A DNA stretch of 64,000 bases from assembly GCA_023386955.1 (NCBI GenBank), contig JAEWIS010000035.1, forward strand, positions 91,841 to 155,840. Direction: 5' to 3'. Positions 3,956 to 45,431 of the stretch are shown piece after piece (the stretch's first letter is position 1; each line of letters opens with the position of its first letter). This DNA comes from Bacillota bacterium. Its GTDB lineage: Bacteria > Bacillota > Bacilli > Paenibacillales > NBRC-103111. The notes beneath the pieces are model-generated. The model had not been told where the DNA came from. It saw only the letters and a program-made list of their open reading frames with translations, and searched no databases. Position numbers and translations under genes: made by a program.

Positions 3956-5215
3956 ATGCCTTCTGACCTAGAACAAACAATAATAGATATCGACTATAAC
4001 CTAAATAAAGATGATATTATTGATGCAAAAAAAATTGAACCATATTATAAGATGTTTGGAGTATTCAACATTCAAGATCCTAGGATGACCACTTTAGTTC
4101 TAGCTTCAGCGAGAACAATCTCGCGACATGGAGGAAATTTATCACGTTCGGAACTTGATGACATACTTAATTACATGCAGAAAAGTATGCGTAGGAAAGT
4201 CATTAGCTATTTAATTAAATATGAGTGGATACTTTTTAATGGTATCGACTATCAGATGCCTGGTCGTATTGTTTCATTGCTTACTCATGGTTTATTTGGA
4301 TCTGTGATTCGCGGAGAAATGGATTTTGCTCAAGAAATTTTACTTGTTGGAAACGAAGCTGAAATATCTGACTTGTATAACTTAGATCAAGAAACAATAG
4401 AAAAAAACTTCCATATTCATATGAGACAATTGAATTATATTAGAGACAATATTGAGCGAACGATCCAAAGACGATCAAAAAGAGAGATAAGAGAAATCAT
4501 TCAAACAAGCCCTACAATACTAAGTGCTATCGATGAGCTAAGAAAGAAGATAAAAAGAAGAAATGATCTATCGAGTAGTTTTCAGAAAAGAAACGAATTT
4601 TACGAAGTTTGTGGACAGATTACAGCGTTAGTTGCCCAAACATTGGATATTGCTAGAGATAATCTATTGCAAGATGTTAGTGCTTTAGGAAAATATATTG
4701 ATCCCGAGAAAATGGAGGAGTTTCTTAGAGGGACTTCGGTTGAGTATCTGACCAATTTGGCTACTAATTATTTTTCCGCGCCTAAGCAAACTCCACAACT
4801 AAGAGAAGAGACCCTCATTTATAAAACTAAATCATTCTTTCTACAAGAATATAATGAAATAACAGAGATTCCCCCTCCTCCTATTATTGATTTTGAAGAA
4901 GAAGAGATCATTTTTGAAACAAAAGATAATCCCCTCGATTTATTACATCATGAATTAATATTTAAGCTCAAAGATAGACAAGATGCTCCTCTAGATGAAG
5001 TTTTGTTTTCTAAAGGTGATAACTTTGGATTAGCGATGTATCGGACAGGACAAGCTGTCAAGCTTGTTTCTAACCTTCAAGTATCAGAAACAGTCATCAA
5101 AAAAGAAACTTTGGGTCTCGAAGTAAAAGATAATATGAAATCTTTAAAAAATCGTTCTATAAAAGAAATGACAGAAGCTTATATTAGGAGGGGGAATTAT
5201 GGAGGAAACAACTAA
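3956..5215 (+). CDS. Kleisin-like subunit of an SMC complex (JetA/MksF/MukF-like position)
   Basis: A 419-residue acidic, mostly helical protein, ATG after GAGGTGG. Residues ~40-110 look like a winged-helix/helical bundle (SRSELDDILNYMQKSM, VISYLIKYEWIL). Residues ~150-280 are long charged helices, then comes an acidic proline-bearing linker near 315-330 (EIPPPPIIDFEEEE), and a C-terminal ~70 residues that could form a cap-binding winged helix. I cannot match it to a named family by sequence alone. The call rests on architecture and on gene order, kleisin then KITE then SMC, as in mukF-mukE-mukB, mksF-mksE-mksB and jetA-jetB-jetC. It overlaps the next gene by 17 nt. Codon use is AT-rich, unlike the flanking backbone genes. 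Confidence 0.55.
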   Translation: MPSDLEQTIIDIDYNLNKDDIIDAKKIEPYYKMFGVFNIQDPRMTTLVLASARTISRHGGNLSRSELDDILNYMQKSMRRKVISYLIKYEWILFNGIDYQMPGRIVSLLTHGLFGSVIRGEMDFAQEILLVGNEAEISDLYNLDQETIEKNFHIHMRQLNYIRDNIERTIQRRSKREIREIIQTSPTILSAIDELRKKIKRRNDLSSSFQKRNEFYEVCGQITALVAQTLDIARDNLLQDVSALGKYIDPEKMEEFLRGTSVEYLTNLATNYFSAPKQTPQLREETLIYKTKSFFLQEYNEITEIPPPPIIDFEEEEIIFETKDNPLDLLHHELIFKLKDRQDAPLDEVLFSKGDNFGLAMYRTGQAVKLVSNLQVSETVIKKETLGLEVKDNMKSLKNRSIKEMTEAYIRRGNYGGNN

Positions 5216-5807
5216 TCCAGAGGTGCAACGAATTTGCTCACTTTTTCATTATGGGTGGGTCTCTAAAGAATCAGTAGGAATTTTAGAGAAGAACTTGACT
5301 CTATATAGAGAAGTTCAACAAGCGTTAGGTACGATGGGGTACGAGCTTATTAATTTTCCAAATTGTGAGTGGTATGTAATTCGCTTAAAGAAAGAATTTG
5401 ATGATGACGCTTTTGATAAATTTCATCGAAAAAATAGTGGTTTCAACCAAAGACATATGGCATTGATAACTATACTCTTTATAAAGCTAATGGTACCCCG
5501 TTTAATAGGAAACTATGGAGATCAAGAAATTTATACAACCTTAGACGAGTTGACATTAAATTATGGAGAGAAATTTCGTTTTAGAAGATGGAGCCCCCGT
5601 AACTCAATTGAATCTCTAATTAAAATGTTAAAAAAGCATTGGTTTGTTATTGAAAAGGGGAAAAGGTATTACGCTGGACCTGCAATGTTTATGCTCCATT
5701 ACAACGATTACCTTCAGAATATTACACAGGATATGCTTCAAGAGATGATGGAGCTTACTCAGCAAGTCGCTAAGGATTTATCAGAGGATCAGATGAAGGC
5801 AGATTAA
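5199..5807 (+). CDS. KITE/MukE-like winged-helix subunit (JetB position)
   Basis: A 202-residue protein, ATG after TTAGGAGGGGG inside the end of the preceding gene, so translation is probably coupled. Residues ~85-165 contain a plausible winged helix: MALITILFIKL, then IYTTLDELTLNYGEKF, then SPRNSIESLIKMLKKHWFVIEKGKRYYAGPAM, with the wing strand VIEKGKRYYAG. Size, position between kleisin and SMC genes, and the tandem-wH look fit the KITE proteins MukE, MksE and JetB, which dimerise and bind the kleisin linker and DNA. No enzymatic motif. Assignment is by context plus fold impression. Confidence 0.55.
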   Translation: MEETTNPEVQRICSLFHYGWVSKESVGILEKNLTLYREVQQALGTMGYELINFPNCEWYVIRLKKEFDDDAFDKFHRKNSGFNQRHMALITILFIKLMVPRLIGNYGDQEIYTTLDELTLNYGEKFRFRRWSPRNSIESLIKMLKKHWFVIEKGKRYYAGPAMFMLHYNDYLQNITQDMLQEMMELTQQVAKDLSEDQMKAD

Positions 5808-5843
5808 AAGAAAGACCTGGATAGAGAGGGGGAAGAGCAGTAA

Positions 5844-8717
5844 ATGATTAAAGACTTTTCGACTGCTTATTGGGGGCTACTACCGACCACATCTAAGCCA
5901 TATCCAGCACATCCAAAAGTTAATGCCTTTGTTGGAGCTTCAGGTCATGGCAAAACCACCATCATGGATGGACTTCGCTTGCTTTTAGGAGATGCTAAAT
6001 TCGAAAATAATAGGGATGCGCTTCATTACATGCATGAAAGGAGTAAGTGGTCTGTTGTTCGGGCTTCTTTTTATAATGAGTCAGTGAATGGGATGCGACC
6101 ATTTGATAATGCAGGCTGTCAAGATGATGAAGTTACTTGTTGTTGTTTAATTACAATTAATTCGAATGGTCGGCCAGAAAAAGATTATTATGTGTTTGAT
6201 GGCAGATTTACTGAGATAGTTGAATTAGGAAGAAATCCAAAAGCTTATAGTCAGAGTCTGAGAACACAAAAGCAATATAAGCAGATTCTAGAAGAATGTC
6301 TAGGAGTAACACCGGCTTTTAGAAATCTTATGTCGATGAATCCGACAACTGTTAAGAATCTTGTTCATTTGGATTCTAATGACCTTTTTTTAAAAGTCTT
6401 CGAGTTAAAAGGGGTAAAAAAGATTCATGACAATTTTAGAGCGGCCAAAGATGAGTTAGGCAGGCAAGAAGTAAGTTTGCATCATGCACAAAATTCACTT
6501 AATGAGGGATTGGATAATTTCAGTAAACTTCAAATGAAATCTGAAAAGTTTAAAGGATATCAATCCAATAGGTTAATATTACAATCTGTTAAACAGAAGC
6601 TGTTAAAAGTAGAGTATTGGGAAAATAGTACTTCAATTATGGTATATGAAAAAAAAGACTCAGCGCTTAAAAGTGAGGTTAGGACAAACCAGGATAAAAA
6701 ACTTAATTTAGAAGTAGAAAGGCGTTCTATTCAGTCGGAAGTTTTTAACATGGGAGAAGAACAAAAGCAGTATAGGACTACTGTATCTGAATTTCAAAAA
6801 GAGATTGGACAATTAAGGGAAAAAATTGGTGAGATATCATCGGAAAGAAAAATAACAGATCAAGATGTGTTAGAGCTAAAAAAAATTAGGCCTTTAAACA
6901 AAGAAGGTCTTATTCAAAACTATAGAAATGCTCATGAAAATATGGAAGAAGCTAAAATAGCATGGCGCAAGGAGAAAGATAAGCTTTACAATCTTGAGCA
7001 GAGAAAAAAAGATTTAGATCAGGATAAACCACATCCTGATTTTGTGTACGAGTTCACCTCAAAACTCAATGAAAATAATATTAATTATATTCTTTTAGCC
7101 GATGCCATATCTCTTAAGCCCGAATATGAAAAATGGCAAGTAGCAGTTGAGGCGTTTTTGGGGAATGAACGATTTAGAATAATTGTTAATAAGAATCAAG
7201 AAGTAATAACGAAAAAGCTTCAGGAGAAATATAGATATACTTCCAGGGTAAGTATTTTGAAACCACGCGCAGAGATTCTTTTTAAGAGAAATATTTCTTT
7301 TCCAACAATTAGTTCAGTAATCGACGTAGCATTTCCAGACAAAGTCGGCGGTTATTTAACTCGTTTGAATGAAATTTATTTGGTTGAAACAGTCGAAGAG
7401 GGTCATCAACTTCAAAAACAAGGATTAACAAGTATTACACTAAAGGGCTTACTGCAAGACCATGATGGCTCTATTTTTAGAAAATATCACCGATTATGTT
7501 GTGGCAAAATGGCCATAGAGAAAGAAAAAATGTTAATCAACATTGAAATAAACAACCAAAAGAAAATATGTCGAGAAAATGAGGCCCTAGTAACTAATTT
7601 TGATGAGGAAGTTAGACAACTTCATGCTAGCATTAAGGAACAGAATGAGTTAGAAAAATTACCAATTAAAGAGAAAAAACTAAATGATCTGAATAATGAT
7701 TATCAGAGTCTTTTGAATGAAATAGATCAAAAGGAAAATTTGTGCGAAAAAATAAATAGTAAACAAGAGAAAATCACAGGGTTCCTTACCGAAAAGAAAG
7801 TTACTGAAGCTATATTTGAACAACAGGAAAAGCACTGTCAGGAAGAAATCGAACGATTAAGTCGAGAAATAAAAGTTGTATTACAAGAACTGACAATTAA
7901 AAAGATAGATCTGGAAGAATCAAAGCAAAAGCTCATTGTATTTGGGATTTCAGAGGATGATATAGAATTTATATCTGAAGATATAAATTCATCTTCTTTT
8001 AAAAATGAACAAGGTGAAGTATATTCTTCAAAAGAGTTAAAAAAAGAAAGTGATCGTATTTCTGAGTTTATTAATAGTTTCATAAAAGAAAATCCAGATA
8101 TTGATGAGACAATAGTAGAACTTGTAAAAACACAAGAGGTTTTGGTTAATCAATTACAAAGCCGATTTAACTTCATCAAAGGAGAAAGAGATAGTTGGGA
8201 ACAAGAGTGTAATAACAGTCTTGCGGCACTTCAAAGTCATATTAAAGAAACAATGAAAGACTTTATAGAAGAATTCCTTATGATGGCTGATCTAATCGGG
8301 GCTAACGCCGCGGGTCGACTCGAACCACGGGGGGAAGATCCAGACTTGTGGGAGTTATATCTATCTATAGGGTTCGATGGGAAGAAACCTGTCCTTATTA
8401 GTAGTCCTGGATTATCTTCCGGACAAAGGGCTCGAACTAGCCTTTTAGTGTTGTTGGCTGCAGTAAGCAGTAAAAGGAGAGGAGAAAAGCTTTCCATTAT
8501 GTTCTTAGATGAGCCTAACGCTGAGGTTGATGACTATAGTGGAAACGATATTGGTCAGGTCTTCCAAGTAACTGATATTCAATATTTTATAACGCATCAA
8601 ACGGGGGAATCTCTTAAATCTATACAGTGGATAGACCATTCTTTTATATGTAGTCAATGTCCCCCGGATTCGGATTTCACTAAGCCCCTAATAGTCCAAA
8701 AAATACGGAATGACTAA
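5844..8717 (+). CDS. SMC-type ATPase with hinge (JetC/MksB/MukB position)
   Basis: A 957-residue protein with a full SMC plan. The N-terminal ATPase half has Walker A GASGHGKTT (residues 31-39, K37). A coiled coil covers about 190-400. A globular hinge follows at about 410-560 (NYILLADAISLKPEYEKW, VAVEAFLGNERFRIIV). A second coiled coil covers about 565-800. The C-terminal half has signature LSSGQRA (857-863), Walker B IMFLDEP (D889, E890) and H-loop YFITHQTGE. All catalytic residues are intact. It is shorter than canonical SMC (~1150-1200) or MukB (~1480). SMC complexes use ATP to extrude DNA loops, and Wadjet/MksB versions recognise small circular DNA. ATG after GAGGGGGAAG. It lies 36 bp after the KITE-like gene and 49 bp before the chosen kinase start. 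Confidence 0.85.
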   Translation: MIKDFSTAYWGLLPTTSKPYPAHPKVNAFVGASGHGKTTIMDGLRLLLGDAKFENNRDALHYMHERSKWSVVRASFYNESVNGMRPFDNAGCQDDEVTCCCLITINSNGRPEKDYYVFDGRFTEIVELGRNPKAYSQSLRTQKQYKQILEECLGVTPAFRNLMSMNPTTVKNLVHLDSNDLFLKVFELKGVKKIHDNFRAAKDELGRQEVSLHHAQNSLNEGLDNFSKLQMKSEKFKGYQSNRLILQSVKQKLLKVEYWENSTSIMVYEKKDSALKSEVRTNQDKKLNLEVERRSIQSEVFNMGEEQKQYRTTVSEFQKEIGQLREKIGEISSERKITDQDVLELKKIRPLNKEGLIQNYRNAHENMEEAKIAWRKEKDKLYNLEQRKKDLDQDKPHPDFVYEFTSKLNENNINYILLADAISLKPEYEKWQVAVEAFLGNERFRIIVNKNQEVITKKLQEKYRYTSRVSILKPRAEILFKRNISFPTISSVIDVAFPDKVGGYLTRLNEIYLVETVEEGHQLQKQGLTSITLKGLLQDHDGSIFRKYHRLCCGKMAIEKEKMLINIEINNQKKICRENEALVTNFDEEVRQLHASIKEQNELEKLPIKEKKLNDLNNDYQSLLNEIDQKENLCEKINSKQEKITGFLTEKKVTEAIFEQQEKHCQEEIERLSREIKVVLQELTIKKIDLEESKQKLIVFGISEDDIEFISEDINSSSFKNEQGEVYSSKELKKESDRISEFINSFIKENPDIDETIVELVKTQEVLVNQLQSRFNFIKGERDSWEQECNNSLAALQSHIKETMKDFIEEFLMMADLIGANAAGRLEPRGEDPDLWELYLSIGFDGKKPVLISSPGLSSGQRARTSLLVLLAAVSSKRRGEKLSIMFLDEPNAEVDDYSGNDIGQVFQVTDIQYFITHQTGESLKSIQWIDHSFICSQCPPDSDFTKPLIVQKIRND

Positions 8718-8766
8718 ATTTCATAGTTTATGAATGTAAGGAACACTTAATGGGGGAATGATTCAA

Positions 8767-10614
8767 ATGGCTGCAGATCATATTTTTTTAATTGATGATC
8801 GCGATACTGGCCTAGAGGTAAAGAAAAATTTTAGAGATGAATATCGTTTCCCAGTCGAAATGTCCGTGACCGGGCGAAAGTATAGTGGAGTAGAAGCTAC
8901 TCTTAACAAGCAGCATGGTAAGAAGATACTTATGGAGTTTATTTTGAAATTACTTTTAAAAGGTCCAAAGCAATATGAATCATTTGTTAAAAAAGTGCTT
9001 CAAAGATTTAGTTGGTTTGATTTAAGTGATTCTTTGGAGATTCTCTTGTTAGATGGTGTGATACAGGTTGTTTTTAAAAACTTAAAACCTCGGAAAGCAG
9101 TAGATTGGGTACCAAAAATAATACAGCTTGATCCCAGGGCTTTAGAGTTTTTAACACTAGAAAAACCAGACATCAACCTGGAACTTGCAAAACTAAAAAA
9201 ATCAGTGATCGAATTAATCGCAAATGCCAAAAATCCGCTCAGGCAACAAATCTTTCAGTGGATTGCAGAAACAGAAATAAAAGATGGATCAGGTGCTGTA
9301 ATCGCCGATTCTAAATCGTATCGAAAATATAGATCAATTATTCTTACAATTTCTCATTACATCTATTTGAAGGAACGTGGAGAAATAATACCTTTACGTC
9401 ATTTGTCAAACCAACTTTGGGGTCAGCCATTTTTGTTAAGCACTTATAGAAAAGATATTGGTTTTGCAGCTAACATACCCTCGGATGAGCTTGATTCTGT
9501 GCTTCTTGCGGATATTAATAGTGAATTGCATGCTCCTCTAGTCTCAATTTCACCAGTTGAAGAATTACAGAAGCTTTTGAGTAAACTTTCGGAGCCTAAG
9601 ATTTCATATGATGTCATAATATTAGCCATGAATGATCATATAGAGAAAATTATTGAATTGATAGGTGATTCCAAGAATGAAACTCTAAATACTTTTTTGT
9701 TAGATTATTACGATTTTAAATCCAAGTTTTTTGAGAGTAACTCGCAAGAGAACATATCGTCAAATTTAGTAGAATTCGAAAAATCTATTACTACCTTTAA
9801 AAGAGAAATGCTTAAGATAGAGAATATTAGGCATAAATATGAGATGATCGTATTGGAAGAGTTGGGAAGTGGTTCTTTTGCCAGAGTTTATAAGGTATTC
9901 GATCCGGAATTAAATAATATTGTAGCATGTAAAATTCTTTTCCCAAGAAGTCACTTTAAGCAAGTGTATAGAAATGAGGGGGATGAATATATACTTCGTT
10001 TTAAACGAGAGGTCAGACTGTTGACTAAGGAGCTGCAACATAGAAACATCGTGGATGTCGGGAAGATACAAGTTGAAGGTTCAATCTTTTGGTTTACTAT
10101 GCCATTAGCAAGTTTTACTTTAGACAAATGGATAAAAGATAACCGTAATGCTTCTGTAGATAAACGTATGGAAATCTTTAAACAGATTATTTCTGGTGTT
10201 AAATACTTACATGAGAGAGAAAAATACCATCGGGACTTAGCTCCAAATAACATTTTATTATATGAAACAGATCATGGATTAGAAGTAAAGATAGCTGATT
10301 TCGGACTGGCAAAAGATATTAGGTCAGAGTCATTTTTCACAGCTTTATCAAAGAGAGGCTATGGCCAGATAGAGTTTACTGATCCTCAGCAACGAAATAA
10401 TTTAGCCGAATCCACACATTTATCGGATATCTACTCATTAGGAGCACTGTTGTATTATATATTAAGCAATAAATACCCCAAAAAAAGGTTTTATGTGAAA
10501 GTTATATGCCAAGATGTAGTTATGAAGGCAATGGATAAGCGAGCTATACGTTATCAAACAGTTTATGATTTTGAGCATGAACTATACGAGTGTATGAAAT
10601 TGAGTGATAAATAG
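8767..10614 (+). CDS. Protein with C-terminal Hanks-type Ser/Thr kinase; fourth gene of the SMC operon
   Basis: ATG 8767 was chosen because GGGGGA lies about 9 nt upstream; an in-frame ATG at 8758 is too close to it (615 versus 618 residues). Residues ~356-612 are a complete protein kinase: glycine loop LGSGSFARVY (366-375), VACKIL with K389, alpha-C E415, HRDLAPNN (D490, N495), IADFG (D511), and an activation-segment end FTDPQQ instead of APE. The N-terminal ~350 residues include a possible winged helix (VLQRFSWFDLSDSLEIL, then LLDGVIQVVFKN), a second helical region (PLRHLSNQLWGQPFL) and a helical linker. I see no Toprim or nuclease motif. It occupies the place of jetD/mksG, the nuclease of Wadjet. 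The kinase call is firm; its role as effector or switch of the SMC complex is inference. Confidence 0.85.
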   Translation: MAADHIFLIDDRDTGLEVKKNFRDEYRFPVEMSVTGRKYSGVEATLNKQHGKKILMEFILKLLLKGPKQYESFVKKVLQRFSWFDLSDSLEILLLDGVIQVVFKNLKPRKAVDWVPKIIQLDPRALEFLTLEKPDINLELAKLKKSVIELIANAKNPLRQQIFQWIAETEIKDGSGAVIADSKSYRKYRSIILTISHYIYLKERGEIIPLRHLSNQLWGQPFLLSTYRKDIGFAANIPSDELDSVLLADINSELHAPLVSISPVEELQKLLSKLSEPKISYDVIILAMNDHIEKIIELIGDSKNETLNTFLLDYYDFKSKFFESNSQENISSNLVEFEKSITTFKREMLKIENIRHKYEMIVLEELGSGSFARVYKVFDPELNNIVACKILFPRSHFKQVYRNEGDEYILRFKREVRLLTKELQHRNIVDVGKIQVEGSIFWFTMPLASFTLDKWIKDNRNASVDKRMEIFKQIISGVKYLHEREKYHRDLAPNNILLYETDHGLEVKIADFGLAKDIRSESFFTALSKRGYGQIEFTDPQQRNNLAESTHLSDIYSLGALLYYILSNKYPKKRFYVKVICQDVVMKAMDKRAIRYQTVYDFEHELYECMKLSDK

Positions 10615-10964: not shown

Positions 10965-12336
10965 GAGTCTGTAAAATATTTTTATGTAAACTCTCAAAAC
11001 CAAATCTAGTAAACTAGAAGGAAGGTCGGTTAGAGAGGATGACACAAGTGGCACGGTTTAGCAAGGAACAGGTGAAGGCATTCGTCGAGGAAAACAACCT
11101 GAAGACCATGGATGACGTGCAATCTGCACTCAAGGAATTGTTTGCAGAGACGCTTCAGTCCATGCTGGAGGCCGAACTCGACACGGAACTTGGATATGAG
11201 AAGCACGATATGAAGAACAAGGCGACCACTAACAGCCGCAACGGAAAAACGAAAAAGACCGTCACTAGCGAATATGGTGAAGTGGAAATCCAAGTTCCGC
11301 GTGATCCTAACGGTGAGTTTGAGCTCATGATCGTGAAGAAGCATCAGTCGAATGTGACGGGTATTGAGGACCAGATTATCGCCATGTACGCCAAGGGTGT
11401 GAGTACACGTGACATCCAGGACCATTTGAACCGGTTATATGGCATTGATGTCTCCCCTACGATGATCTCAATCGTAACCAACAAGATCGTGCCCCTGATC
11501 AAGGAATGGCAGAATCTCCCGTTGCAAGGTGTATATGCCGTTGTATTCCTGGATGCTATCCACTTTAAGGTCAAGCAGGACGGAGCGATTGTGAACAAGG
11601 CTGCCTACATGGTTATCGGGATTGATCTGGATGGCAACAAGGACGTGTTGGGCATGTGGATTGGGGAGAATGAGTCCGCCAAGTTCTGGCTTAGTGTTCT
11701 TAACGATCTCAAAAACCGCGGCGTACATGACATTCTTATCACCTGTGTAGACAACCTGACGGGGTTCTTTCAAGCTATTTCCGCCTGCTATCCGAAGACC
11801 GAGATCCAAAAGTGTATTGTCCACCAAATCCGGAATTCCACACGGTACGTGTCCTACAAGGACTTGAAGAAGGTTACAGCGGACTTAAAGCCGATTTACA
11901 AAGCCACTACGGAAGAGGCCGCTTTGGTCGAACTGGATCGTTTCGAAGAGGCCTGGGGAACCAAGTATCCGCTCATTATCCGCTCCTGGCGTAACAATTG
12001 GGACGAGCTTGCTACGTTCTTTAAATATCCCCCAGAGATTCGGAAACTTATCTATACGACCAACATCATCGAGAGTTACCATCGCCAACTCCGCAAAGTC
12101 ACAAAAGGGAAAAGCATCTTCCCCTCCGATGAAGCGTTGTTGAAGATGCTCTATCTGTCCACCATGGATGTGGTTCGGAAATGGACGGGGCGGGTTCAGA
12201 ACTGGGGACAAATGCTGCTGCAGCTTTCCGTCTTTTTCCCTGATCGGGTCTGCCAACATTTACGGTAGACAGGCCAACTCCTCCTTCCCGGGGTAATTCC
12301 CTATAAATGAGTTTACAGAAAAATATTGACAGACCT
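10965..12336. mobile_element. IS256-family insertion sequence (about 1372 bp)
   Basis: One transposase gene is bounded by imperfect terminal inverted repeats. The left end reads GTCTGT then AATATTTTT then GTAAACTC (10965-10993). The right end read on the minus strand gives GTCTGT, CAATATTTTT, CTGTAAACTC (12336-12309), with one indel and a few mismatches. An 8-bp target duplication, AGAGCACC, flanks it exactly. The element looks complete. It landed in the 5' arm of a terminator hairpin, and the duplication leaves a working hairpin on the right side. Confidence 0.85.
11039..12268 (+). CDS. IS256-family (mutator-type) transposase
   Basis: A 409-residue DDE transposase. Visible acid residues are in VVFLDAIHFKV, CVDNLTGF and IIESYHRQLRK, the IS256 DDE triad with the family motif NIIESYHRQLR close to the C terminus. 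The N-terminal region carries the usual zinc-less helical DNA-binding part and the conserved NSRNGKTKKT segment. ATG after GAAGGTCGGTTAGAGAGG. No internal stop or frameshift, so it is probably active. Its GC content is higher than that of the operon it follows, consistent with recent arrival. Confidence 0.9.
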   Translation: MTQVARFSKEQVKAFVEENNLKTMDDVQSALKELFAETLQSMLEAELDTELGYEKHDMKNKATTNSRNGKTKKTVTSEYGEVEIQVPRDPNGEFELMIVKKHQSNVTGIEDQIIAMYAKGVSTRDIQDHLNRLYGIDVSPTMISIVTNKIVPLIKEWQNLPLQGVYAVVFLDAIHFKVKQDGAIVNKAAYMVIGIDLDGNKDVLGMWIGENESAKFWLSVLNDLKNRGVHDILITCVDNLTGFFQAISACYPKTEIQKCIVHQIRNSTRYVSYKDLKKVTADLKPIYKATTEEAALVELDRFEEAWGTKYPLIIRSWRNNWDELATFFKYPPEIRKLIYTTNIIESYHRQLRKVTKGKSIFPSDEALLKMLYLSTMDVVRKWTGRVQNWGQMLLQLSVFFPDRVCQHLR

Positions 12337-12786: not shown

Positions 12787-14619
12787 ATGGATAATCAGGT
12801 ATATAATCAAATTGTAAGTTTTATTTGGGCCATTGCAGATGATTGCCTTCGTGATGTTTATGTACGAGGAAAATATCGCGATGTTATACTACCTATGACG
12901 GTAATCCGCCGTCTAGATGCGGTGCTTGAGGAAACCAAAGATGAGGTTCTGAAAATGAAAATGATGCTCGATAACGCGGGTGTTGCCAATCAAACAGAAG
13001 CCCTTTGCAATGTTGCAAAGCAATCTTTTTGTAATGACTCTGAGTTTCGTCTTCGCGATCTGACGAGTCGAGTAAGCCAACAGAAATTGAAAGCCGACTT
13101 TATTGCATACTTGGACGGTTTTTCACCTAATGTTCAGGAAATATTGGCCAAATTTAAGTTTCGCAATCAAATTGATACCATGGTAGATGCAGATATCCTC
13201 AGCTCAGTTATTGAAAAGTTTGTATCACCAACCATAAATCTTGCGCCGTTCCCGGTATTGGATGATAATGGTGGTATTCGCATACCCGCGTTGGATAACC
13301 ATACGATGGGAACAATCTTTGAGGAATTAATTCACCGCTTCAGCGAAGAAAACAACGAGGAAGCTGGGGAACACTTTACACCACGCGATGTCGTAGAATT
13401 AATGGCGGACTTAATATTCTTACCCGTAGCTGATCAAATCAAAGATTCTACATATTCGGTGTACGACGGCGCAAGCGGCACCGGCGGCATGCTTACTGTG
13501 TCTCAAGACCGTCTGCAGGAGCTAGCGCGGCGTAATAAACGCACTGTGTCCATCCACCTTTTTGGGCAGGAAATTAATCCAGAAACTTATGCAATTACAA
13601 AGGCTGATTTGCTTCTTAAAGGCGAAGGGGCGGAATTGGAAAACATTTCCTATGGATCTACCCTTGGTAATGATGGATTTCCGAGCCGGCAGTTTGACTT
13701 TATGCTTTCAAATCCACCATATGGAAAAAGCTGGAAAGGTGATGCTGAAAAAATGGGGGGCAAAAAAGGGATTATGGATCCCCGATTTGTTACTAATTTT
13801 GCAGGCATTCCTGACTTTAGCATGATCCCACGCACAAGTGATGGCCAGCTTTTGTTCCTGCTCAACAATGTAAGCAAGATGAAGGAAACCACTGAGCTTG
13901 GTTCTCGTATTGCAGAGGTGCATAATGGCTCTAGCTTGTTTACGGGTGATGCTGGTCAGGGCGAGAGCAATGCCCGCCGCTATCTCATCGAGCGTGACTT
14001 GGTCGAGGCGATAATTGCTTTACCTGAGAATATGTTTTATAACACGGGAATAGGAACATTCGTTTGGATCCTTTCCAATCGTAAAGCCGGGACGCCTCGC
14101 GAGGGTAAGTTGCAGTTAATTGATGCAACCAGCTTAAAATCGCCTCTGCGAAAGAATTTAGGCAAAAAAAGCTGTGAACTAACTGGAGGCAAAGATGGTA
14201 TACGACGTCAAATTGTTGATTTGTTCTTGAAATTTGAAGAAAACGAGTATAGTAAAATCTTCGATAATACTGCGTTTGGATATTATAAGGTTACTGTTTT
14301 ACGTCCTCAACTGGGCGAAAACGGCAAGCCGTTACGTGATAAAAATGGAAAACTCATCGTTGATAAAGAACTAACCGACACCGAGCAGATTCCGCTGAAC
14401 TACGAAGGCGGAATTGATGCGTTTATTTCCAAGGAGGTGCTTCCTTATGCACCTGAGGCGTGGGTGGATGAAAAGCAAACAAAAATCGGCTATGAAATCA
14501 GCTTTACTAAACATTTTTATACGCCTGTACAACTACGTGAGCTTTCTCAGATTGTCGCTGATATTCGTGCGCTGGAAGCGGAAACGGATGGATTGCTTGA
14601 GGAGGTTCTGGGAAATTGA
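12787..14619 (+). CDS. hsdM: Type I restriction-modification system, DNA methyltransferase subunit
   Basis: A 610-residue N6-adenine methyltransferase. The N-terminal ~160 residues form the HsdM helical domain (FIWAIADDCLRDVYVRGKYRD). The SAM-binding motif is YDGASGTGG (226-234), and the catalytic motif is SNPPYGKSW (NPPY at 309-312). With HsdS it methylates adenine in a bipartite recognition site and is also required in the HsdR-containing restriction complex. Somewhat longer than the classic ~520-residue form, with an extra C-terminal region from ~480. Ribosome site GAAGAGGAGAAAG. Its stop overlaps the hsdS start. First gene of a four-gene operon. Confidence 0.93.
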   Translation: MDNQVYNQIVSFIWAIADDCLRDVYVRGKYRDVILPMTVIRRLDAVLEETKDEVLKMKMMLDNAGVANQTEALCNVAKQSFCNDSEFRLRDLTSRVSQQKLKADFIAYLDGFSPNVQEILAKFKFRNQIDTMVDADILSSVIEKFVSPTINLAPFPVLDDNGGIRIPALDNHTMGTIFEELIHRFSEENNEEAGEHFTPRDVVELMADLIFLPVADQIKDSTYSVYDGASGTGGMLTVSQDRLQELARRNKRTVSIHLFGQEINPETYAITKADLLLKGEGAELENISYGSTLGNDGFPSRQFDFMLSNPPYGKSWKGDAEKMGGKKGIMDPRFVTNFAGIPDFSMIPRTSDGQLLFLLNNVSKMKETTELGSRIAEVHNGSSLFTGDAGQGESNARRYLIERDLVEAIIALPENMFYNTGIGTFVWILSNRKAGTPREGKLQLIDATSLKSPLRKNLGKKSCELTGGKDGIRRQIVDLFLKFEENEYSKIFDNTAFGYYKVTVLRPQLGENGKPLRDKNGKLIVDKELTDTEQIPLNYEGGIDAFISKEVLPYAPEAWVDEKQTKIGYEISFTKHFYTPVQLRELSQIVADIRALEAETDGLLEEVLGN

Positions 14620-15896
14620 ACACCTACGAAACATATAAGCCCATCAGTCTACCTTGGCTTCATTATGTGCCATCCCATTGGGACATGGTTCGTAATAAAG
14701 TTGTTATGAAAGAATCAAAAAACACTGTTGGTGATGAGTCATCAAAATACACTCTCTTGTCATTGACAAAAAGTGGTGTTATTGTTAGGGATTTAACGCA
14801 AATGAAAGGCAAGTTTCCTAGTGATTTTAGCACCTATAAAATAGTAGAAGACGAGCAGATTATTTTTTGTCTCTTTGATATAGATGAAACTCCTCGTACC
14901 GTAGGGCTCTCACATCATTCTGGAATGATAACAGGAGCTTACGATGTTTTTTACATTACAGGTATCAATCCCAAATATCTGCAATACTACTATTTGTCGC
15001 TTGATAATGTAAAGGCTATGCGTCCGCTGTACACAGGTTTAAGAAAAGTTATTGGGATGACGACCTTTATGCAAATATCCTTACCCCTCCCGCCACGTAC
15101 CGAGCAGGATCAAATTGTCTGCTTTCTTGACTGGAAGCTGTCACAGATAAACCGCCTTATCAACGCAAAGAAAAAACAAATTGCTCTGCTGCAGGACCAG
15201 AAGCGAGTGGTGGTGAATGAGGCAGTAATGAATGCTGCGTGGTCAACCCGTAGACTGAAAACGTTCTTAAAGGAAAGTAATGATGCTGTCGGCGATAAAG
15301 CTGATGAATACGATTTACTTTCTCTAACAAAAGGCGGCGTAATTATTCGAGATCTTAGCACAGGAAAGGGAAAGTTTCCGAGTGATTTCGGGACATATAA
15401 AGTAGTCCGTGCTGGTCAAATAATTTTTTGCTTATTTGATATCGATGAAACGCCACGAACCGTTGGTTTATCCTATAATGACGGTATGATTACTGGTGCG
15501 TATGATGTGTTTTCAATTAGTGACATCGAACCTAAGTTTCTTGAATACTACTTCATTGCGATTGATAATGTTAAAGGGTTAAAACCTCTATACTCTGGAC
15601 TTCGAAAAGTTGTAAATAAAGAAAAATTTCTACAAATACAAGTTCCAATACCCCCCATTAAGGAACAACAATCAATCGTTGTAGAACTTGATGCTAAATG
15701 TGCCTGCATTAATAGACTAATCGAAAAAATTAATACTGAGATCAAATTCCTCAATGAATATCGCATACGTTTAATTTCCGATGTAGCTACCGGAAAGATT
15801 GATGTGCGAAATGAAACTGTGCCTGACTATGAAGCAATTGAAGAAACGGCAGAGAATGAGTCGTTGGTTGTTAACGAAGAAGAATTGTATGAATAG
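14616..15896 (+). CDS. hsdS: Type I restriction-modification system, specificity subunit with two near-identical TRDs
   Basis: A 426-residue protein starting at TTG in the overlap TTGA with the hsdM stop; GGAGG lies 10 nt upstream. It has the usual two target-recognition domains, each followed by a conserved coiled-coil spacer (EQDQIVCFLDWKLSQINRLI and EQQSIVVELDAKCACINRLI). The two TRDs (about residues 30-150 and 213-333) are strikingly alike: both contain KGKFPSDF, QIIFCLFDIDETPRTVGLS and GMITGAYDVF, roughly two thirds identical by hand alignment. Normally the two TRDs differ and read different half-sites. Here both should read the same or a very similar half-site, predicting a near-palindromic target. 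Confidence 0.92.
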   Translation: MNTYETYKPISLPWLHYVPSHWDMVRNKVVMKESKNTVGDESSKYTLLSLTKSGVIVRDLTQMKGKFPSDFSTYKIVEDEQIIFCLFDIDETPRTVGLSHHSGMITGAYDVFYITGINPKYLQYYYLSLDNVKAMRPLYTGLRKVIGMTTFMQISLPLPPRTEQDQIVCFLDWKLSQINRLINAKKKQIALLQDQKRVVVNEAVMNAAWSTRRLKTFLKESNDAVGDKADEYDLLSLTKGGVIIRDLSTGKGKFPSDFGTYKVVRAGQIIFCLFDIDETPRTVGLSYNDGMITGAYDVFSISDIEPKFLEYYFIAIDNVKGLKPLYSGLRKVVNKEKFLQIQVPIPPIKEQQSIVVELDAKCACINRLIEKINTEIKFLNEYRIRLISDVATGKIDVRNETVPDYEAIEETAENESLVVNEEELYE

Positions 15897-15920: not shown

Positions 15921-16508
15921 ATGCTTGACATAAAAGAGTGGAAGTGGGAAAAAGTAAAATCTAAAGATAAAGTAGAGCATACTTTGTCATGCCCATATTG
16001 TAACGTTAAGGTTCGAGCTACATCCGATACAAGAATATTTGATGCAGATACGGGCGCAATAAAGTATCACATATTTAAATGCCCAGAATGTTGTATGCCT
16101 ATAACTATTGGACTCGACGGAAGAATCATACCCACATCCCAGTTTTTACCGTTTGAAGATGTTCCATTTTTGCCATTCAGAATAGAGAAAATGTATTGCG
16201 AATGTAGGAAATGCTTCTCCAACGATTGCTTTTATTCGGTTATAATGGTTGCCCGTACAATGATAATGCATATAGCGGCAGATTTAGGTGCAGCATCAAA
16301 TCTTAAGTTTATAGAATATATAGACTACTTAGAACATCAAGGATATATATCAAGGCACAGTAGGACTTGGGTTGACAAAATAAGAAAATTAGGAAATCAG
16401 TACATACACGAATTGGATGAAGCAACTAAACAAGAGGCTGAATTAGCAATTATCTTCATTATGCATTTATTGATCGATGTATATAAGTTGCCGGAGATGG
16501 CGAAATAG
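15921..16508 (+). CDS. DUF4145 domain protein with N-terminal zinc ribbon
   Basis: A 195-residue protein, ATG after GGGGGTGATC. The N terminus holds CPYC and CPEC pairs about 40 residues apart, which look like a zinc ribbon. The C-terminal ~90 residues are helical and carry the DUF4145 pattern (VARTMIMHIAADLG ... LRKLGNQYIHE-like segment KIRKLGNQYIHELDE). DUF4145 proteins are often encoded with type I R-M genes but have no established activity. It lies between hsdS and hsdR with 24 and 12 bp gaps, so it is certainly co-transcribed. An accessory role in restriction or its control is inferred from position only. Confidence 0.75.
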   Translation: MLDIKEWKWEKVKSKDKVEHTLSCPYCNVKVRATSDTRIFDADTGAIKYHIFKCPECCMPITIGLDGRIIPTSQFLPFEDVPFLPFRIEKMYCECRKCFSNDCFYSVIMVARTMIMHIAADLGAASNLKFIEYIDYLEHQGYISRHSRTWVDKIRKLGNQYIHELDEATKQEAELAIIFIMHLLIDVYKLPEMAK

Positions 16509-26725: not shown

Positions 26726-27454
26726 ATGCTCCGTATTGCCATCTGTGATGACACGGAGGCTGAGCTGGAACAGATGCTGGCCTTGGCCAACGCATATATT
26801 GCCGGCCGTGGCCTTGCTGCTGATGTGCGGGCATTCGGTCATCCGGATGTGCTTTTGACAGCTTATGAAACGGAAACCTTCCATATTTTCCTGCTGGATA
26901 TGGTGATGCCCATGGTTAACGGATTGGAGCTGGGCCGGAGCATCCGCCGGATTAGCACCGATGCACAGATCATCTACATCACCACCGAACCCGGGTTTGC
27001 GCTGGACGCCTATGCGGTAAACCCGCTGCATTATCTTCTTAAGCCCGTAGACAGACAGGCGTTTTTCTCCGCATTGGATTTGGCTGTGGAGAAGGTGAAC
27101 TTCGGTGAGGAGCTGCATGTGACCGTCAAAACCCGGCAGGGGCTCCGCACGTTGTCCGCCGATGCCATTGCCTGCTGTGAATATGTGCGCCACAGTGTCG
27201 TGTATACGCTATTAAACGGCGAACGGGTAGAAACCACTACGATTACCGGCAGCTTTGCCAACCACATTGCCCCACTGCTCCAGGACCGCCGCTTTATTCA
27301 GCCCCACGCCGCATTTGCCGTCAATATGAGCCGGGTGGAGCGCTTAAGCAGGGAGGAATTCACCCTCCGGGGCGGTTTCCTGGTTCCGGTGTCCGGTAAG
27401 CAATATACCTCCGTGCGCAATGCCTACATGAGCTACCGGCTTGGGGAGATGTAA
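26726..27454 (+). CDS. LytTR-family response regulator (AgrA/LytR-like), cassette 1
   Basis: A 242-residue protein, ATG after CGGGAGG. The receiver starts LRIAICDDTEAE, with phospho-acceptor D58 in FLLDMVMP and K in YLLKPVD. The C-terminal LytTR DNA-binding domain is seen in VKTRQGLRTLSADAIACCEY, FIQPHAAFAVNMSRVERL and GGFLVPVSGKQY. LytTR regulators bind paired direct repeats about 21-22 bp apart. It is followed after 2 bp by its GHKL kinase and then by the first giant SLH gene and protease, which it probably controls. Paralogue of the regulator at 44134-44913. Confidence 0.9.
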   Translation: MLRIAICDDTEAELEQMLALANAYIAGRGLAADVRAFGHPDVLLTAYETETFHIFLLDMVMPMVNGLELGRSIRRISTDAQIIYITTEPGFALDAYAVNPLHYLLKPVDRQAFFSALDLAVEKVNFGEELHVTVKTRQGLRTLSADAIACCEYVRHSVVYTLLNGERVETTTITGSFANHIAPLLQDRRFIQPHAAFAVNMSRVERLSREEFTLRGGFLVPVSGKQYTSVRNAYMSYRLGEM

Positions 27455-27456
27455 CG

Positions 27457-28728
27457 ATGGAGCTGTACGACATTATCCGGTCGGCCGCCACCAATGCCAT
27501 GCTGGTTATGCTGCTGTTTACGCTGGCGCAGTCCAGATACCGCGCGCCCGTCCAGTGGGCGGCGCTGGCCGTCATCGTGTGCCTGAACACGGGGTTGAAC
27601 ATCTGGTTCTATCTGCAGGATGATTATACCACCCTGGCCAAGCTGGACATTGTGTATTTCATATTTGTGGGCATCGTGGCCAAGCCGCTTTTTCGGGACC
27701 GTCTGATGCAATGGCTGTTCAACTGCTTCATGGTCATGAATATCTATGCTGCCGGAGTCATTCTAAGCTTCTATCTGTGTCATTTGTTCCCGTACCCCAA
27801 TTATGCGGTCACGCTGCTGCGTGTACTGCTGTTCGGCGCGGCCATTTATCTGTTCCGCCATCATCTGCGGCCCTTGTACCGCCAGGCAGCCGAACGGTGG
27901 GATGTGTATCTGATTGTGTCTGCGGCGCTGTTTATGAACTTTGCCTGGTACTTCTTCTCCGGCGCCGACGTGACCCGGATGCTGACGGAGAATATAGCTC
28001 CTCTTCTGCTCCTGATTCTGCTGGCGGTGCTGCTGTATCTGGCGGCCCTTCTTTCGCTTCGCAAGCACATGCAGGAAACGCTGCTGCGGGAGGAGCATCT
28101 GAACATCCGGGCCGACCGGGAGCTGACCCGCCACCGTCTGGCCCTGATGGACGAAGCGGTGCGTCAGATGAGCATTGCCCAGCATGACCGCCGCCACTTC
28201 AATAATACGCTGCTCGGCCTGCTGGAGCAGGGTGAAGCCGGCAAAGCCGCCGGCCTTATCCGCAGCTACAGCGAGTCTTTGCCCCGGAAGCCCCGGAGCT
28301 ATTGCGACAATGTGCCGGTGAATGCCGCCGTGTCCTATTATGCCGAGTTGGCCAGGCAGCAGGACATCCGCTGCGATTTGCGCCTCGATATTCCCCAAAC
28401 CCTGGATGTGGACGAGATGTCCCTTGCGATAACGGTGTCCAACCTGATGGAAAATGCCATAACCGCCGTATCCGCCCTTCCCGCACCCGAACGCCGCCTG
28501 CGTCTGACGGCCGTCTATGCCGGCCAGCTGATTCTGGAATGCTCCAACCCCTTTGCCGGTCCGGTCGCCTTTGACGTAGCGGGGCTTCCTGTTTCCGCAA
28601 AGGAGGGGCATGGCACGGGCAGCCGGAGCGTGGCGGATTTTGTCAGGAAATGCGGCGGGGAGCTGGTGTATGAGGTGAAGGAGGGGCTGTTTCGGGTGCG
28701 CATCGGCATGATCGGCAACAATAAGTAG
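27457..28728 (+). CDS. GHKL-domain sensor histidine kinase (AgrC-like), cassette 1
   Basis: A 423-residue kinase. The N-terminal ~200 residues form about six membrane segments. Then a coiled coil leads to the H-box IAQHDRRHFNNTLLG with H243, followed by the GHKL ATPase (NLMENAITAV as N-box; GHGTGSRSVADFV as G-box). The AgrC-type topology suggests sensing of a small extracellular or membrane-borne signal, perhaps a peptide. No peptide precursor gene is visible in cassette 1. Partner of the LytTR regulator 2 bp upstream. Confidence 0.88.
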   Translation: MELYDIIRSAATNAMLVMLLFTLAQSRYRAPVQWAALAVIVCLNTGLNIWFYLQDDYTTLAKLDIVYFIFVGIVAKPLFRDRLMQWLFNCFMVMNIYAAGVILSFYLCHLFPYPNYAVTLLRVLLFGAAIYLFRHHLRPLYRQAAERWDVYLIVSAALFMNFAWYFFSGADVTRMLTENIAPLLLLILLAVLLYLAALLSLRKHMQETLLREEHLNIRADRELTRHRLALMDEAVRQMSIAQHDRRHFNNTLLGLLEQGEAGKAAGLIRSYSESLPRKPRSYCDNVPVNAAVSYYAELARQQDIRCDLRLDIPQTLDVDEMSLAITVSNLMENAITAVSALPAPERRLRLTAVYAGQLILECSNPFAGPVAFDVAGLPVSAKEGHGTGSRSVADFVRKCGGELVYEVKEGLFRVRIGMIGNNK

Positions 28729-28750
28729 AAAATGGCGGTTTTTAAGTAGA
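28723..28750 (+). promoter_or_regulatory. Possible LytTR-type direct repeat before the cassette-1 giant gene
   Basis: AAGTAGA occurs at 28723 and 28744, 21 bp apart, with a possible -10 TATGCT at 28773. The spacing fits a LytTR dimer, but the repeat is short, overlaps the kinase stop and does not match the better site at 44957-44992. Confidence 0.3.
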
Positions 28751-28860
28751 TTTGCCGCACACACTCCTTTTTTATGCTATTTTCGACAGAAAATACGTAT
28801 AAAGAGGGAGTTTTTTTCATGTCCCATCCAGAAAAGCAGTGGTGTAGAAGGAGAGGGAAT

Positions 28861-31800
28861 ATGATGCTGAAGAGGCTCGTCAGTGTACTGCTGGTGTTCT
28901 GCCTCGCAGCCGGTCTCGTTCCGCCCCGGGCATTGGCAGCCAACGGCAACGATCCTGTGCCGCCAGTTCCCTTCACGGACGTCAGCAGCAGTGCCTGGTA
29001 TTATGATGCTGTTCGATATGTGTACGAAAACAAGATTTTCGGCGGCACCTCCGATACCCGCTTCACCCCGGATGGCACCATGACCCGGGGTATGTTTGTT
29101 ACCGTGCTGGGACGTATGGCAGGTGTGGATGCCACGAGTACAGGACCGTCCGCCTTCTCCGACGTCCCCCGGAACGCCTGGTACGCCCCTTATGTGGAAT
29201 GGGCCGCCAGGTACGGCATTACCTCCGGTACCGGAAACGATACCTTTTCTCCCGATGCCAGCATCAGCCGTGAGCAGATGGCCTCCTTCTTTGTGCGTTA
29301 TTTTGAAGGCTTTGGTGTGGATTACCAGACGGGCGCGAATGTCGCCACAACACCCGCTGACATGGGAGAGGTGGCCGATTATGCCCAAGAAGCCGTTCTG
29401 AAGCTATGGCAAGCCGGACTCTTAAACGGCGATGGCGCAAGCTTCAATCCGTCTGCTAACGCAAGCCGTGCCCAAGCGGCGGCACTGTGTATGCGTACGG
29501 ACAAGGCGGTCAAGATCTGGTACAAGGAGCCGGGTGTTCCATCGGAGCATGTCCGTACTGTACCCGAGGCGGAACCCAAGCCAACACCGTCCCCTGGAAG
29601 CAATGACAGCGGTGACGGCGACTCATCTGAGACGGCTGTCACCTACTATACCTTCAAGTTTGATACCAATGACGGCACCGTCATTTCTGACCGGAGCCTC
29701 CGCAAGGACAGCAAGCTGAACAATCTGCCGGTCCCTTATAAGGCGGATTCCATCTTCATCGGGTGGTGCTACGACGAGGCGCTTACCCGGCTGGTGGCGG
29801 CTGGAGATACAGCGCAGGAGAGCGCCATCCTGTATGCCAAATATGAGGAGATGTCTCCCCTCCCGCAGGATTTTCAGACACCGGTAGCCCGGGCCATTGA
29901 CACAAGCCCGGATTTCGCCGTAACGGTCTCGGCGCCGGACGACATGGACCTGGACCAGTTCAAGGACGCGGTTACCCTTAAAAACCTCAGCTCTAACGAA
30001 AACAAGGAATGGTTCAGCATCACCGGCGGCAGCGGCACCTTTACTATCTCCGGCGTCAATGATCTGGGGGTGCAGGGTGCCCGGCAGAGTGGTTTTGTGG
30101 AGGGCTCTGCTTATAAGATCACGCTGGAGGATAAGACCCTGTCCTTTGTGGGGCAGGATGCCTCCGCCCGTGAATATGTGTTCACCATCAAGCGGGCAGA
30201 GGTGGTGAATGTGTCTCTGAATGGGCAGATGGCGCAGATTCCGCTGGCGGATATTTCCGGCCTGACCGTCAATGGGATACCTGCCACCACGGTCTCCATC
30301 CCCGTGATCACCGTAGGCCTCCATGGAGCCCCTGCCGAAAACGGCACGACCACGGGCAGCTTTATCTACAGCAAAGGGACCTTGGCCGCAGGCGACACCA
30401 TTATGATCTATGAGGGGGATACCCCTCCCCAAATGGATGCCGTCAGCAGCGATAATAATACGGCCTTTGTGAGGATCACCCAAGCGGAAGGCAGCAGCTA
30501 TACATACAAAACCGCGGATGCGGAGGATGTCCTGTTTACACCGGATGTATTGCCGGTCAGCATAGGGGCGGACCGCGACGGGGATGCGGGCAACCACTCC
30601 ATCACCGTGGACAGGGCGGATCTCACCTATACCGATGACCGCTTTGCCCACATGGGTCTGGACTCGCAAACAACCATTGACGCGGGAGATTTCATCTCCT
30701 TCTACTCCGGCACGCTGCAAACGGACGGCACTCTCGCCGATGGCGGGCACATGCTGGGTTATGCCAGGGTCACGGCTGTGACCGAAGCGGAAGGGAGCTA
30801 TACCGTTGCGTACACGGATGTCAGTCTGTCCGAGCTGCAGCAGGCCATGGCCGCTTATAAGAAGGAGACCATCCGCTCCGATAATCTGCTGGAGGGGGTG
30901 GACCGTAAAGCTATCGAGTCCAGCGTGGAGCAGCAGGCCCGCAATAGCGGCTTTGCCGAGGAAGCCGGCAGGTATCTGGCGGCGTTGGCCTTGGAGACGG
31001 ATTCCTTTACCCGGCTTAGAGACGATTACAGTCTGACCGCCGTGGAGATGACCATGGACGGCCAGCCCATCACCCGGGAGACCCTGCAGCGGATGGGCGG
31101 CGCCAAAGCGGAGGTTGAGCTGAGCAAGCTCCAGGTGACCCTCAGCACGGACCTTGTCCACTTCGAAGGGATTGACGGCTTGCGTCTCACGCTGGATGTG
31201 GGGATCAAGGTGAAGATCGAATGCAACGATAATGTGACCATCGAGATCGAAATTGTCGGCTCCTTCGAGCAGGAGGTCCGCGTTGATATCGGTGTGGACG
31301 GCGATGCCGTGTGGAAATGGTGGGGCATCTTCCCATATATTGCGGAGTATGAGGTCACTGCCTATGTAGAGCTTTATGAGTACACCGGCATTGGCATTGA
31401 AGCCACCATTGCCACCAAGGAAACCGAAGACGAGGGCTTTGGCACCAAGAATGAGGAAATTGAGAAGATCGGCAAGCAGATCAAGGATCTCATGGACCAA
31501 AAGGAGAAGTACATCGGAGACGGCTCCGGTACCGTGGGGGACAGTCTGGAAGAAAAGTATGCCGCCATGCTGGAGAATGAAAGCGATTGGGTGACGCTGT
31601 TTGAGAAGGCGTTGGTGGAGCAGGAGCAACAGGTCATGCTCATCATCGCGATTAACATCGAGGTCAAGCTGGTGGTGAGCGCCAACCTGAACATTTCCCT
31701 GGGGCTGGATTTCTGGTATGAGAATGCCAAGCGCTATATCTATACCGTGCAGGTTTTTGCCGGGAATGTGACCAGCGATACCATTGATCTGGTGGAGGAG

Positions 31801-39147: not shown

Positions 39148-39184
39148 GGGGGGCTGCATCACGCAGCTCCAGGAGGAGCACACG

Positions 39185-44913: not shown

Positions 44914-44956
44914 CCCCATTTTAATATCAATTGGAACCTTCTTCAACCACCCTAAT

Positions 44957-44992
44957 TACCGTTCAGGCCGAAATCCACTACCGTTCAGGCCG
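44957..44992. promoter_or_regulatory. Paired direct repeat, probable LytTR regulator binding site
   Basis: TACCGTTCAGGCCG occurs twice, exactly, at 44957-44970 and 44979-44992, 22 bp start to start (8-bp spacer). LytTR regulators such as AgrA and ComE bind two direct repeats about two helical turns apart with an ACNNTTCAG-like core. The site lies between the divergent regulator/kinase genes and the SLH operon, about 28 bp before a possible extended -10 (TGGTATTTT at 45017-45025), the usual activator position. Confidence 0.75.
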
Positions 44993-45059
44993 GGGACGGT
45001 TTTTTGGCGCTTTTTCTGGTATTTTATCGTTACATGCAAATTGAGAGGAGCGGTGCCGT

Positions 45060-45431
45060 CTGTCCACTATCAGTGCGTTCTTTATAACGTGCATCTACAC
45101 AGTGGGATTTGTGACCATCTGGTTTACAACCGTCTATACGGAGCTGTCAGCAAAGCGAAACAGGCTTGCTGAACTTGATGAGCTGCTGCGTCTGCACGAG
45201 GAGCTGTACACCAAGGCAAGGGATGGTCCCGATATGCAGTCTGCCAATGGAATGGTGGAAATCAGCCGGATGCTCTGGCATGAGGCGTCCCAAAACTATA
45301 ACTGCATTCTGAACAAACCCATGAACCGCATGCCGGCTCTGCTGATGGGCTTTCGGGCTGTAGACGAGGAAAGCAGCCCAGGTAAACATCTCATGGCAAA
45401 TCAAAAAATAAAAGGGGGCACATACAGATGA
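45060..45431 (+). CDS. Small membrane-anchored protein, first gene of the cassette-2 SLH operon
   Basis: The frame has no ATG, GTG or TTG before 45102, but AGAGGAG sits 9 nt before a CTG at 45060. From there the product is 123 residues with an N-terminal membrane segment (STISAFFITCIYTVGFVTIW) and a charged helical domain. A later GTG (45102) would cut the membrane segment. The C-terminal part (ASQNYNCILNKPMNRMPALLMGF) resembles LemA-type sequences (YN..I...P...A...GF). The stop overlaps the giant gene's start as ATGA, so this is a genuine coupled gene. It has no counterpart in cassette 1. Function unknown; a signalling or export helper role is possible. Confidence 0.55.
   Translation: MSTISAFFITCIYTVGFVTIWFTTVYTELSAKRNRLAELDELLRLHEELYTKARDGPDMQSANGMVEISRMLWHEASQNYNCILNKPMNRMPALLMGFRAVDEESSPGKHLMANQKIKGGTYR

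Follow-up and report, generated by a model that had tools for sequence, protein, structure and literature searches.

What would a Wadjet-like structural maintenance of chromosomes (SMC) complex do with a protein kinase in the place of its nuclease? The question is raised by a stretch of 64,000 nucleotides from a Bacillota bacterium (GenBank assembly GCA_023386955.1, contig JAEWIS010000035.1), here called the window. Four open reading frames of 419, 202, 957 and 618 amino acids lie on the + strand at 3956-10614. Genes 1 and 2 overlap by 17 bases, and gaps of 36 and 40 bases separate genes 2 and 3 and genes 3 and 4, giving one operon-like block. The G+C content of the operon is 34.2%, against 50.2% across the window. 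A sequence-only reading had described an SMC operon of four genes in which an intact kinase occupies the position that the nuclease JetD has in Wadjet. Both parts of that description were borne out. The frames are as described and the catalytic residues are conserved; in three of nine related loci a Toprim JetD stands at that place and shares the N-terminal domain of the kinase protein. Judged by profile comparison, gene 4 joins an N-terminal domain of the JetD type to a kinase, which stands where the sister proteins have a nuclease.

The nine loci were obtained by an SMC family scan with one genome per species. The order kleisin, KITE, SMC and kinase was found, as in the window, in six of them (Sutcliffiella halmapala, Cohnella phaseoli, Paenibacillus profundus, P. 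shirakamiensis, Paenibacillus sp. PCH8 and Clostridium aminobutyricum). Since the same four genes recur in the same order in six of nine other loci, the composition is more than chance. The remaining three (L003, L006 and L009) come from a Ruminiclostridium metagenome-assembled genome (MAG), a Bacillota MAG and Heliobacterium mobile. These sister operons have the same SMC family and the same gene 4 N-terminal domain as the window, whereas their gene 4 ends in Toprim. The proteins are 428-441 amino acids long and resemble the kinase protein only over the first ~240 residues. JetD_C was matched in gene 4 of L003 (2.5e-9), L006 (3.8e-11) and L009 (3.9e-11), and PADLOC JetD1 was matched in the sister proteins at up to 2.4e-27. 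They share a glutamate in IEN and a DxD motif, which we take to be the Toprim metal residues. The contig of L009 stops at KITE, so that its kleisin is not visible. Overall, a gene 4 with a JetD-type N-terminus follows the SMC gene in 9/9 loci, six with a kinase and three with Toprim. L003 is 73% identical to the window in kleisin, 82% in KITE and 68% in SMC, yet its gene 4 is a JetD. The SMC identities of L006 and L009 to the window are 37% and 41%.

The N-terminal domain of gene 4 spans residues 19-250 (8812..9507, +) and is modelled with a pLDDT of ~88. In hhalign comparisons, the N-terminus of the kinase proteins matched the full sister JetDs with an E of 3e-48, over about the first 235-240 residues. 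Against the N-terminal pieces of the sisters alone the probability (P) was 100 and the E 4.1e-51, while 20 shuffled controls reached at most P 1.0. The alignment of this domain has 19 invariant columns across seven kinase and three Toprim rows. The canonical sets for these comparisons were taken from ten stretches and held 10 rows for JetA, 9 for JetB, 6 for JetC and 10 for JetD. Sister JetDs matched canonical JetD at P 99.7 over residues 78-422. Without Toprim, the sister N-terminus still matched at P 89.1 and E 2.3e-6 (none of 20 shuffled controls above P 1.0), and kinase and sister N-termini pooled gave P 68.1 (controls at most 0.5). Gene 4 is therefore classed as JetD-type because the sister JetDs bridge the kinase N-terminus to canonical JetD.

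The linkage of gene 4 to the SMC gene was followed in larger genome sets. The best few candidates per genome were scored in the set of 394, and for SMC two per genome in this set and in one of 391. A full-length SMC of this family is present in 4/394 genomes of the Paenibacillus profundus family, and profile matches at E 0.001 occur in 23/394. The gene 4 N-terminal domain, searched alone, was found in the same four genomes above 368 bits; a fifth genome gave 20 bits in a stretch interrupted by a stop. Of 299 genomes in the class of L001, only the starting genome has the domain. The SMC profile matched 108/391 genomes in the class of L003 and 6/9 in the order of L009, with one full-length protein in each case, that of the starting genome. 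By its own account the sequence-only reading would fail if kinase genes were found apart from the SMC genes; strong gene 4 N-terminal matches are confined to genomes with the SMC family among the 394 and 299 genomes. It is thus barely credible that gene 4 is an unrelated kinase gene lying downstream by chance. Kinase domains do occur in several defence systems (PADLOC PD-T4-6, Stk2, mad6), and this would make such a neighbour conceivable. However, the N-terminal domain after SMC in 9/9 loci, its homology to that of JetD and the linkage in 4/4 among the 394 genomes largely refute a chance neighbour. A homology search from the JetD N-terminus of L003 returned only itself, so no further Toprim-type relatives were counted. 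Plasmids gave no match in a DNA search and only one partial match of 20% in tblastn with the SMC, and tblastn with the SMC found none in phages. A match on a viral contig was weak (22%), partial and in a 714-residue frame, and was not counted to the SMC family.

The C-terminal part of gene 4 (8758..10614, +, 618 amino acids) is a protein kinase domain at residues 365-588 (9850..10521, +; Pfam Pkinase 7.4e-33). The top Foldseek match of the gene 4 model is S. aureus PknB (4eqm, E 1.6e-13), and kinases dominate the best 50 of 2000 matches of the full model to the PDB. Gene 4 has the marks of a Hanks-type Ser/Thr kinase, namely the G-loop, the VAIK lysine, the glutamate, HRD and DFG. K392, E418, HRD, N498, D514 and G516 are present in 29/29 rows and the DFG phenylalanine in 27/29. 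The aspartate named D490 beforehand is numbered D493 in the 618-residue frame. Neither Toprim nor JetD_C was matched in the window's gene 4 at E up to 1 with Pfam, in agreement with the earlier statement that no nuclease motif is visible there. In the activation segment, D514-P543 (10297..10386, +), S523, S525, T528 and Y535 are invariant (29/29); residues 520-530 are modelled with low confidence (pLDDT <50). Between the two domains lies a variable, predicted helical linker at residues 262-354 (9541..9819, +), with predicted helices at 268-351. It is poorly conserved in the gene 4 alignment A2, which excludes the window's own P0033 as well as P0046 (382 amino acids) and P0050 (416 amino acids, called partial), the latter two having no listed kinase domain.

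RD kinases with such an activation segment are usually switched on by phosphorylation within it, and Stk2 is a known defence kinase. We propose that the operon probably encodes a Wadjet-type SMC complex in which the kinase, replacing Toprim on the JetD-type domain, answers small circular or invading DNA, once it is sensed, by phosphorylation rather than by a cut. Most likely, JetABC-like sensing of circular DNA would switch on the kinase and lead to growth arrest or abortive defence. By inference from Wadjet, the motor would extrude DNA until, on a small circle, the loop is complete, a state that would be relayed by the JetD-type N-terminal domain. A dimer of SMC complexes could join two copies of gene 4 when the motors meet, which would allow mutual phosphorylation and turn the kinase on. 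Mutual activation is proposed because the kinase of gene 4 is of the RD type (HRD) and its activation segment carries invariant Ser/Thr residues. By analogy with defence kinases, the active kinase would then phosphorylate host proteins and cause arrest of the invaded cell or abortive defence. The low G+C content of the operon and the type I restriction-modification (R-M) neighbour in the window were counted for this signalling function. A defence without cell arrest is also conceivable, in which the kinase phosphorylates replication, partition or transcription proteins of the invader on the captured DNA and silences it. By homology, the JetD-type domain would hold the kinase on a complex sitting on invading DNA, and no conserved partner gene accompanies the operon. 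Nevertheless, such silencing is distinctly unlikely, as it would require broad substrates across unrelated invaders and the sequence holds no evidence for substrate choice.

The remaining genes point to the motor on which this signalling would depend. Gene 3 (5844..8717, +, 957 amino acids) is a JetC-like SMC ATPase, which matched canonical JetC in hhalign at P 99.2 and E 2.8e-19 over 853 columns. PADLOC assigned JetC1 (6.1e-9), and a profile search of solved structures returned SMC2 and JetC 8as8. The Pfam matches to AAA_23, SMC_N and SMC_hinge are all weak and under Pfam's own cut-offs; the hinge lies at residues 418-524 (7095..7415, +; 0.0021, 18.9 bits against a cut-off of 22.5). The Walker A motif at residues 31-39 (5934..5960, +; G31, G36, K37, T38), the signature, the Walker B motif MFLDEP at residues 886-891 (8499..8516, +; D889, E890) and H918 are invariant in 32/32 rows. 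The closest SMC relative is from Paenibacillus sp. IHB B 3415 (81% identity).

Gene 2 (5199..5807, +, 202 amino acids) is KITE, JetB/MukE-like. Its family of nine rows matched canonical JetB at P 86.6 and E 4.5e-6, with 10 shuffled controls at most 1.3. PADLOC JetB1 (PDLC00502) was matched by one of the nine members (5e-4), which is not the window's own, and the window's gene 2 has no Pfam match. Gene 1 (3956..5215, +, 419 amino acids) is a kleisin of the JetA/MukF/MksF kind by predicted fold; the solved structures most similar to its model are those of MukBEF/MukEF and one Wadjet-II JetABC chain. Profile searches of solved structures with genes 1 and 2 gave nothing useful, and PADLOC had no match for the two window proteins. 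On nine relatives of gene 1 (set A4), PADLOC gave single stray matches only, one of them LmuA (0.0055). The identification of genes 1 and 2 as kleisin and KITE, made earlier from sequence alone, has held up so far, as the gene 1 model is MukF-like and gene 2 profiles as JetB.

These genes are also shared by chromosome-organising complexes. Several complexes of the Mks/Wadjet group lack MksG, and MukBEF and an MksBEF of P. aeruginosa organise chromosomes, according to PMC7617805 and PMC10586767. The operon could encode an MksBEF-type condensin that has no defence function and is tuned by a kinase whose targets are the subunits of the complex itself or other proteins of the chromosome. The window operon resembles MukBEF and MksBEF without MksG in SMC and KITE by profile and in the kleisin fold, and no conserved target gene lies nearby. 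Those complexes, as far as the available part of PMC7617805 describes them, have no MksG/JetD effector, whereas gene 4 follows SMC in 9/9 loci here. The patchy presence (4/394 family genomes) and the low G+C content of the window operon also speak against a condensin. In addition, the JetD nuclease at the same place in the sister operons speaks for an accessory effector rather than a housekeeping part. We therefore regard a condensin as unlikely.

The relation between gene 4 and its SMC partner was assessed with trees. In the N-terminal tree, the kinase types lie on one side of a branch (99*) and the Toprim types on the other, with a long-branch warning. In the SMC tree, the three Toprim types are not grouped; three changes are needed, at least two of them forced by starred branches, and the L003 protein, 68% identical to that of the window, adjoins the clade closest to the window. 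This tree, obtained in a short search, has long branches and includes 16 rows whose gene 4 is unread. Shuffled labels yielded the same count of changes (mean 2.9), and therefore the SMC tree shows only that the Toprim types do not group. The window and L007 are 41% identical in SMC and 64% in the kinase protein, and the corresponding values for L001 are 73% and 69%. The trees of 15 paired SMC and kinase rows were then compared; seven pairs were seen in DNA and eight were matched up because their contigs are equally long in the protein database, with that of Desulfitobacterium hafniense DP7 also supported by neighbouring locus tags. A clade of seven rows, supported at 100/100 in the SMC tree, is rejected by the kinase data (p-AU 0.0006, for a clade picked with earlier trees in view). 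L008, P28 and P30 as a single kinase clade were not rejected (p-AU 0.46). Because the SMC and kinase trees conflict, gene 4 seems to have passed between SMC backbones, and the data speak for such an exchange. Toprim is inferred to be the older state from its presence in canonical JetD. The SMC relatives P0006-P0009, P0011, P0012, P0014, P0016, P0021, P0023-P0027, P0029 and P0031 may carry further effector types on a JetD-type N-terminal domain. Among them, P0026, which is nearly identical to the L006 protein, is likely to be of the Toprim type.

Several points weigh against a kinase-signalling Wadjet relative and should be set beside this evidence. The kinase N-terminus compared directly with canonical JetD gave P 2.2, on a level with the best of 10 shuffled controls (2.0), and the link is made by way of the sisters. 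The kleisin call for gene 1 depends on a half-confident model, and no JetA was found by sequence (P 0.5 against canonical JetA by hhalign). An all-against-all BLASTP of the loci found no fifth gene shared beside the operons as a candidate kinase target. Defence neighbours were examined within the window only. The late choice of the seven-row clade counts here too, as do the long branches of the trees, from which the direction of the swap cannot be read.

The operon can be compared with known systems on several sides. It resembles type I Wadjet/MksBEFG (JetABCD) in the order kleisin-KITE-SMC-gene 4, in the JetB and JetC profiles and in the JetD-type N-terminal domain, and differs in the Hanks-type kinase that replaces the Toprim nuclease. 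Wadjet SMC proteins, as called in the ten canonical stretches, have 1110-1251 amino acids against 957 in the window, and PADLOC gave no JetD for the window's gene 4 among the best 25 of 36 matches. Because the defining JetD Toprim nuclease is absent, the operon is not Wadjet proper, and we rate it as a new effector variant related to Wadjet. Lamassu is similar in joining an SMC-like ATPase with varied effectors, as the available text of PMC10586767 describes. The LmuB matches of the window are weak and partial (2.6e-9), and no LmuA was seen for genes 1-4 among the PADLOC matches listed (the best 25 of 36 for gene 4). Unlike Lamassu, the window operon has KITE and kleisin, and its effector is joined to a JetD-type domain. 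Gene 4 shares a Hanks-type kinase domain with the defence kinases Stk2, PD-T4-6, PglW and mad6, with matches in or around that domain; PD-T4-6, Stk2 and mad6 are among the PADLOC matches listed for it, and NCBIfam PglW gave 53 of 990 bits. We know of no case in which Stk2, PD-T4-6, PglW or mad6 is coupled to an SMC-kleisin-KITE complex. Membership in MADS was rejected, with 82.2 of 460 bits for gene 4 against MAD6 (NCBIfam MADS6) and 21.9 of 720 bits for the window's HsdM against MAD2.

The sequence-only reading had been made conditional on no earlier publication of the same four-gene system. In the full-text literature accessible to us, which leaves most subscription papers and bioRxiv preprints outside, no description joining Wadjet/JetABC with a kinase in the JetD place was found. 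The available parts of PMC10586767, PMC10853773, PMC7617805, PMC10865869, PMC13040014, PMC11706625, PMC9252829, PMC10512200, PMC8649781, PMC12786226, PMC13186564, PMC11719660, PMC12645576 and PMC10740426 contain no kinase-for-JetD replacement. PMC7617805 is, in the portion available, a survey of Mks/Wadjet operons in which MksG is optional and flanking models were inspected where it is missing. Kinase-type operons may therefore be present, unremarked, within its Data S1.

Wadjet senses the shape of DNA through JetABC and acts on it through JetD, whose nuclease has been proposed to become active once a small circle has been fully extruded (PMC10586767). Wadjet is described, in the portions of the literature at hand, with a single effector, the nuclease, which has to be kept from acting on the chromosome at all times. 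That a kinase has naturally taken the place of this nuclease on one and the same domain shows that the effector can be separated from the sensor. A kinase effector also promises a read-out of SMC sensing that leaves the DNA intact. L003 and the window, with 68% identical SMC proteins and different effectors, are a natural experiment on how an SMC complex distinguishes plasmid from chromosome. More broadly, a loop-extruding SMC could be a DNA-shape-gated signalling switch with the JetD N-terminus as a general plug for exchangeable effectors, an idea to which we give a little less than an even chance. The complex of the window would also be, to our knowledge, the first SMC complex from bacteria to have a protein kinase among its dedicated subunits.

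DNA might still be cut by a nuclease acting in trans, whether a JetD encoded in a different system or the type I R-M enzymes next to the operon, with the kinase as a regulator. The Cohnella phaseoli genome (G002, L099) holds, apart from its kinase-type operon, a second one elsewhere, whose frames have the sizes of canonical Wadjet genes (455, 205, 1167 and 399 amino acids) and which matches JetD_C at 2.2e-19. Therefore, both effector types can coexist in one genome. A type I R-M set likewise lies downstream in the window. In contrast, JetD_C was not found anywhere in 5/6 kinase-type genomes, and the R-M genes of the window have no BLASTP match in the other loci; cutting in trans is thus very improbable. 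In the Toprim types, JetD_C was found at the locus only (3/3); the assemblies of both types are of unstated completeness. JetD_C occurs in 37/197 family genomes.

A DUF6273 gene lies upstream of the operon. Downstream, a transposase gene of the mutator/IS256 kind (11039-12268) separates the SMC-kinase operon from the type I R-M genes, which may mean that the region was assembled as an island. Beyond the four genes, BLASTP matches among the loci were limited to a pair of L001 and L007 and to a two-component pair that the window has in common with L005, all distant from the operons. With no further shared gene next to the operons, the four genes look like the whole unit. In the type I specificity subunit (14616-15896), the two halves look alike by eye, and a stretch resembling LLSLTK..GKFPSDF..CLFDIDETPRTVGLS..MITGAYDVF is present twice. 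This likeness of the halves would predict a near-symmetric recognition site. The gene of a DUF4145 protein (15921-16508) is placed between hsdS and hsdR. Further along the window, 26726-40123 and 42857-52889 are two similar cassettes, each with a regulator and a GHKL-domain sensor, a giant S-layer-homology protein and then a subtilase. The giant proteins have 3457 and 2204 amino acids and many Listeria-Bacteroides repeats. The second cassette has its regulator pair on the other strand, and its regulator at 44134-44946 was assigned by eye.

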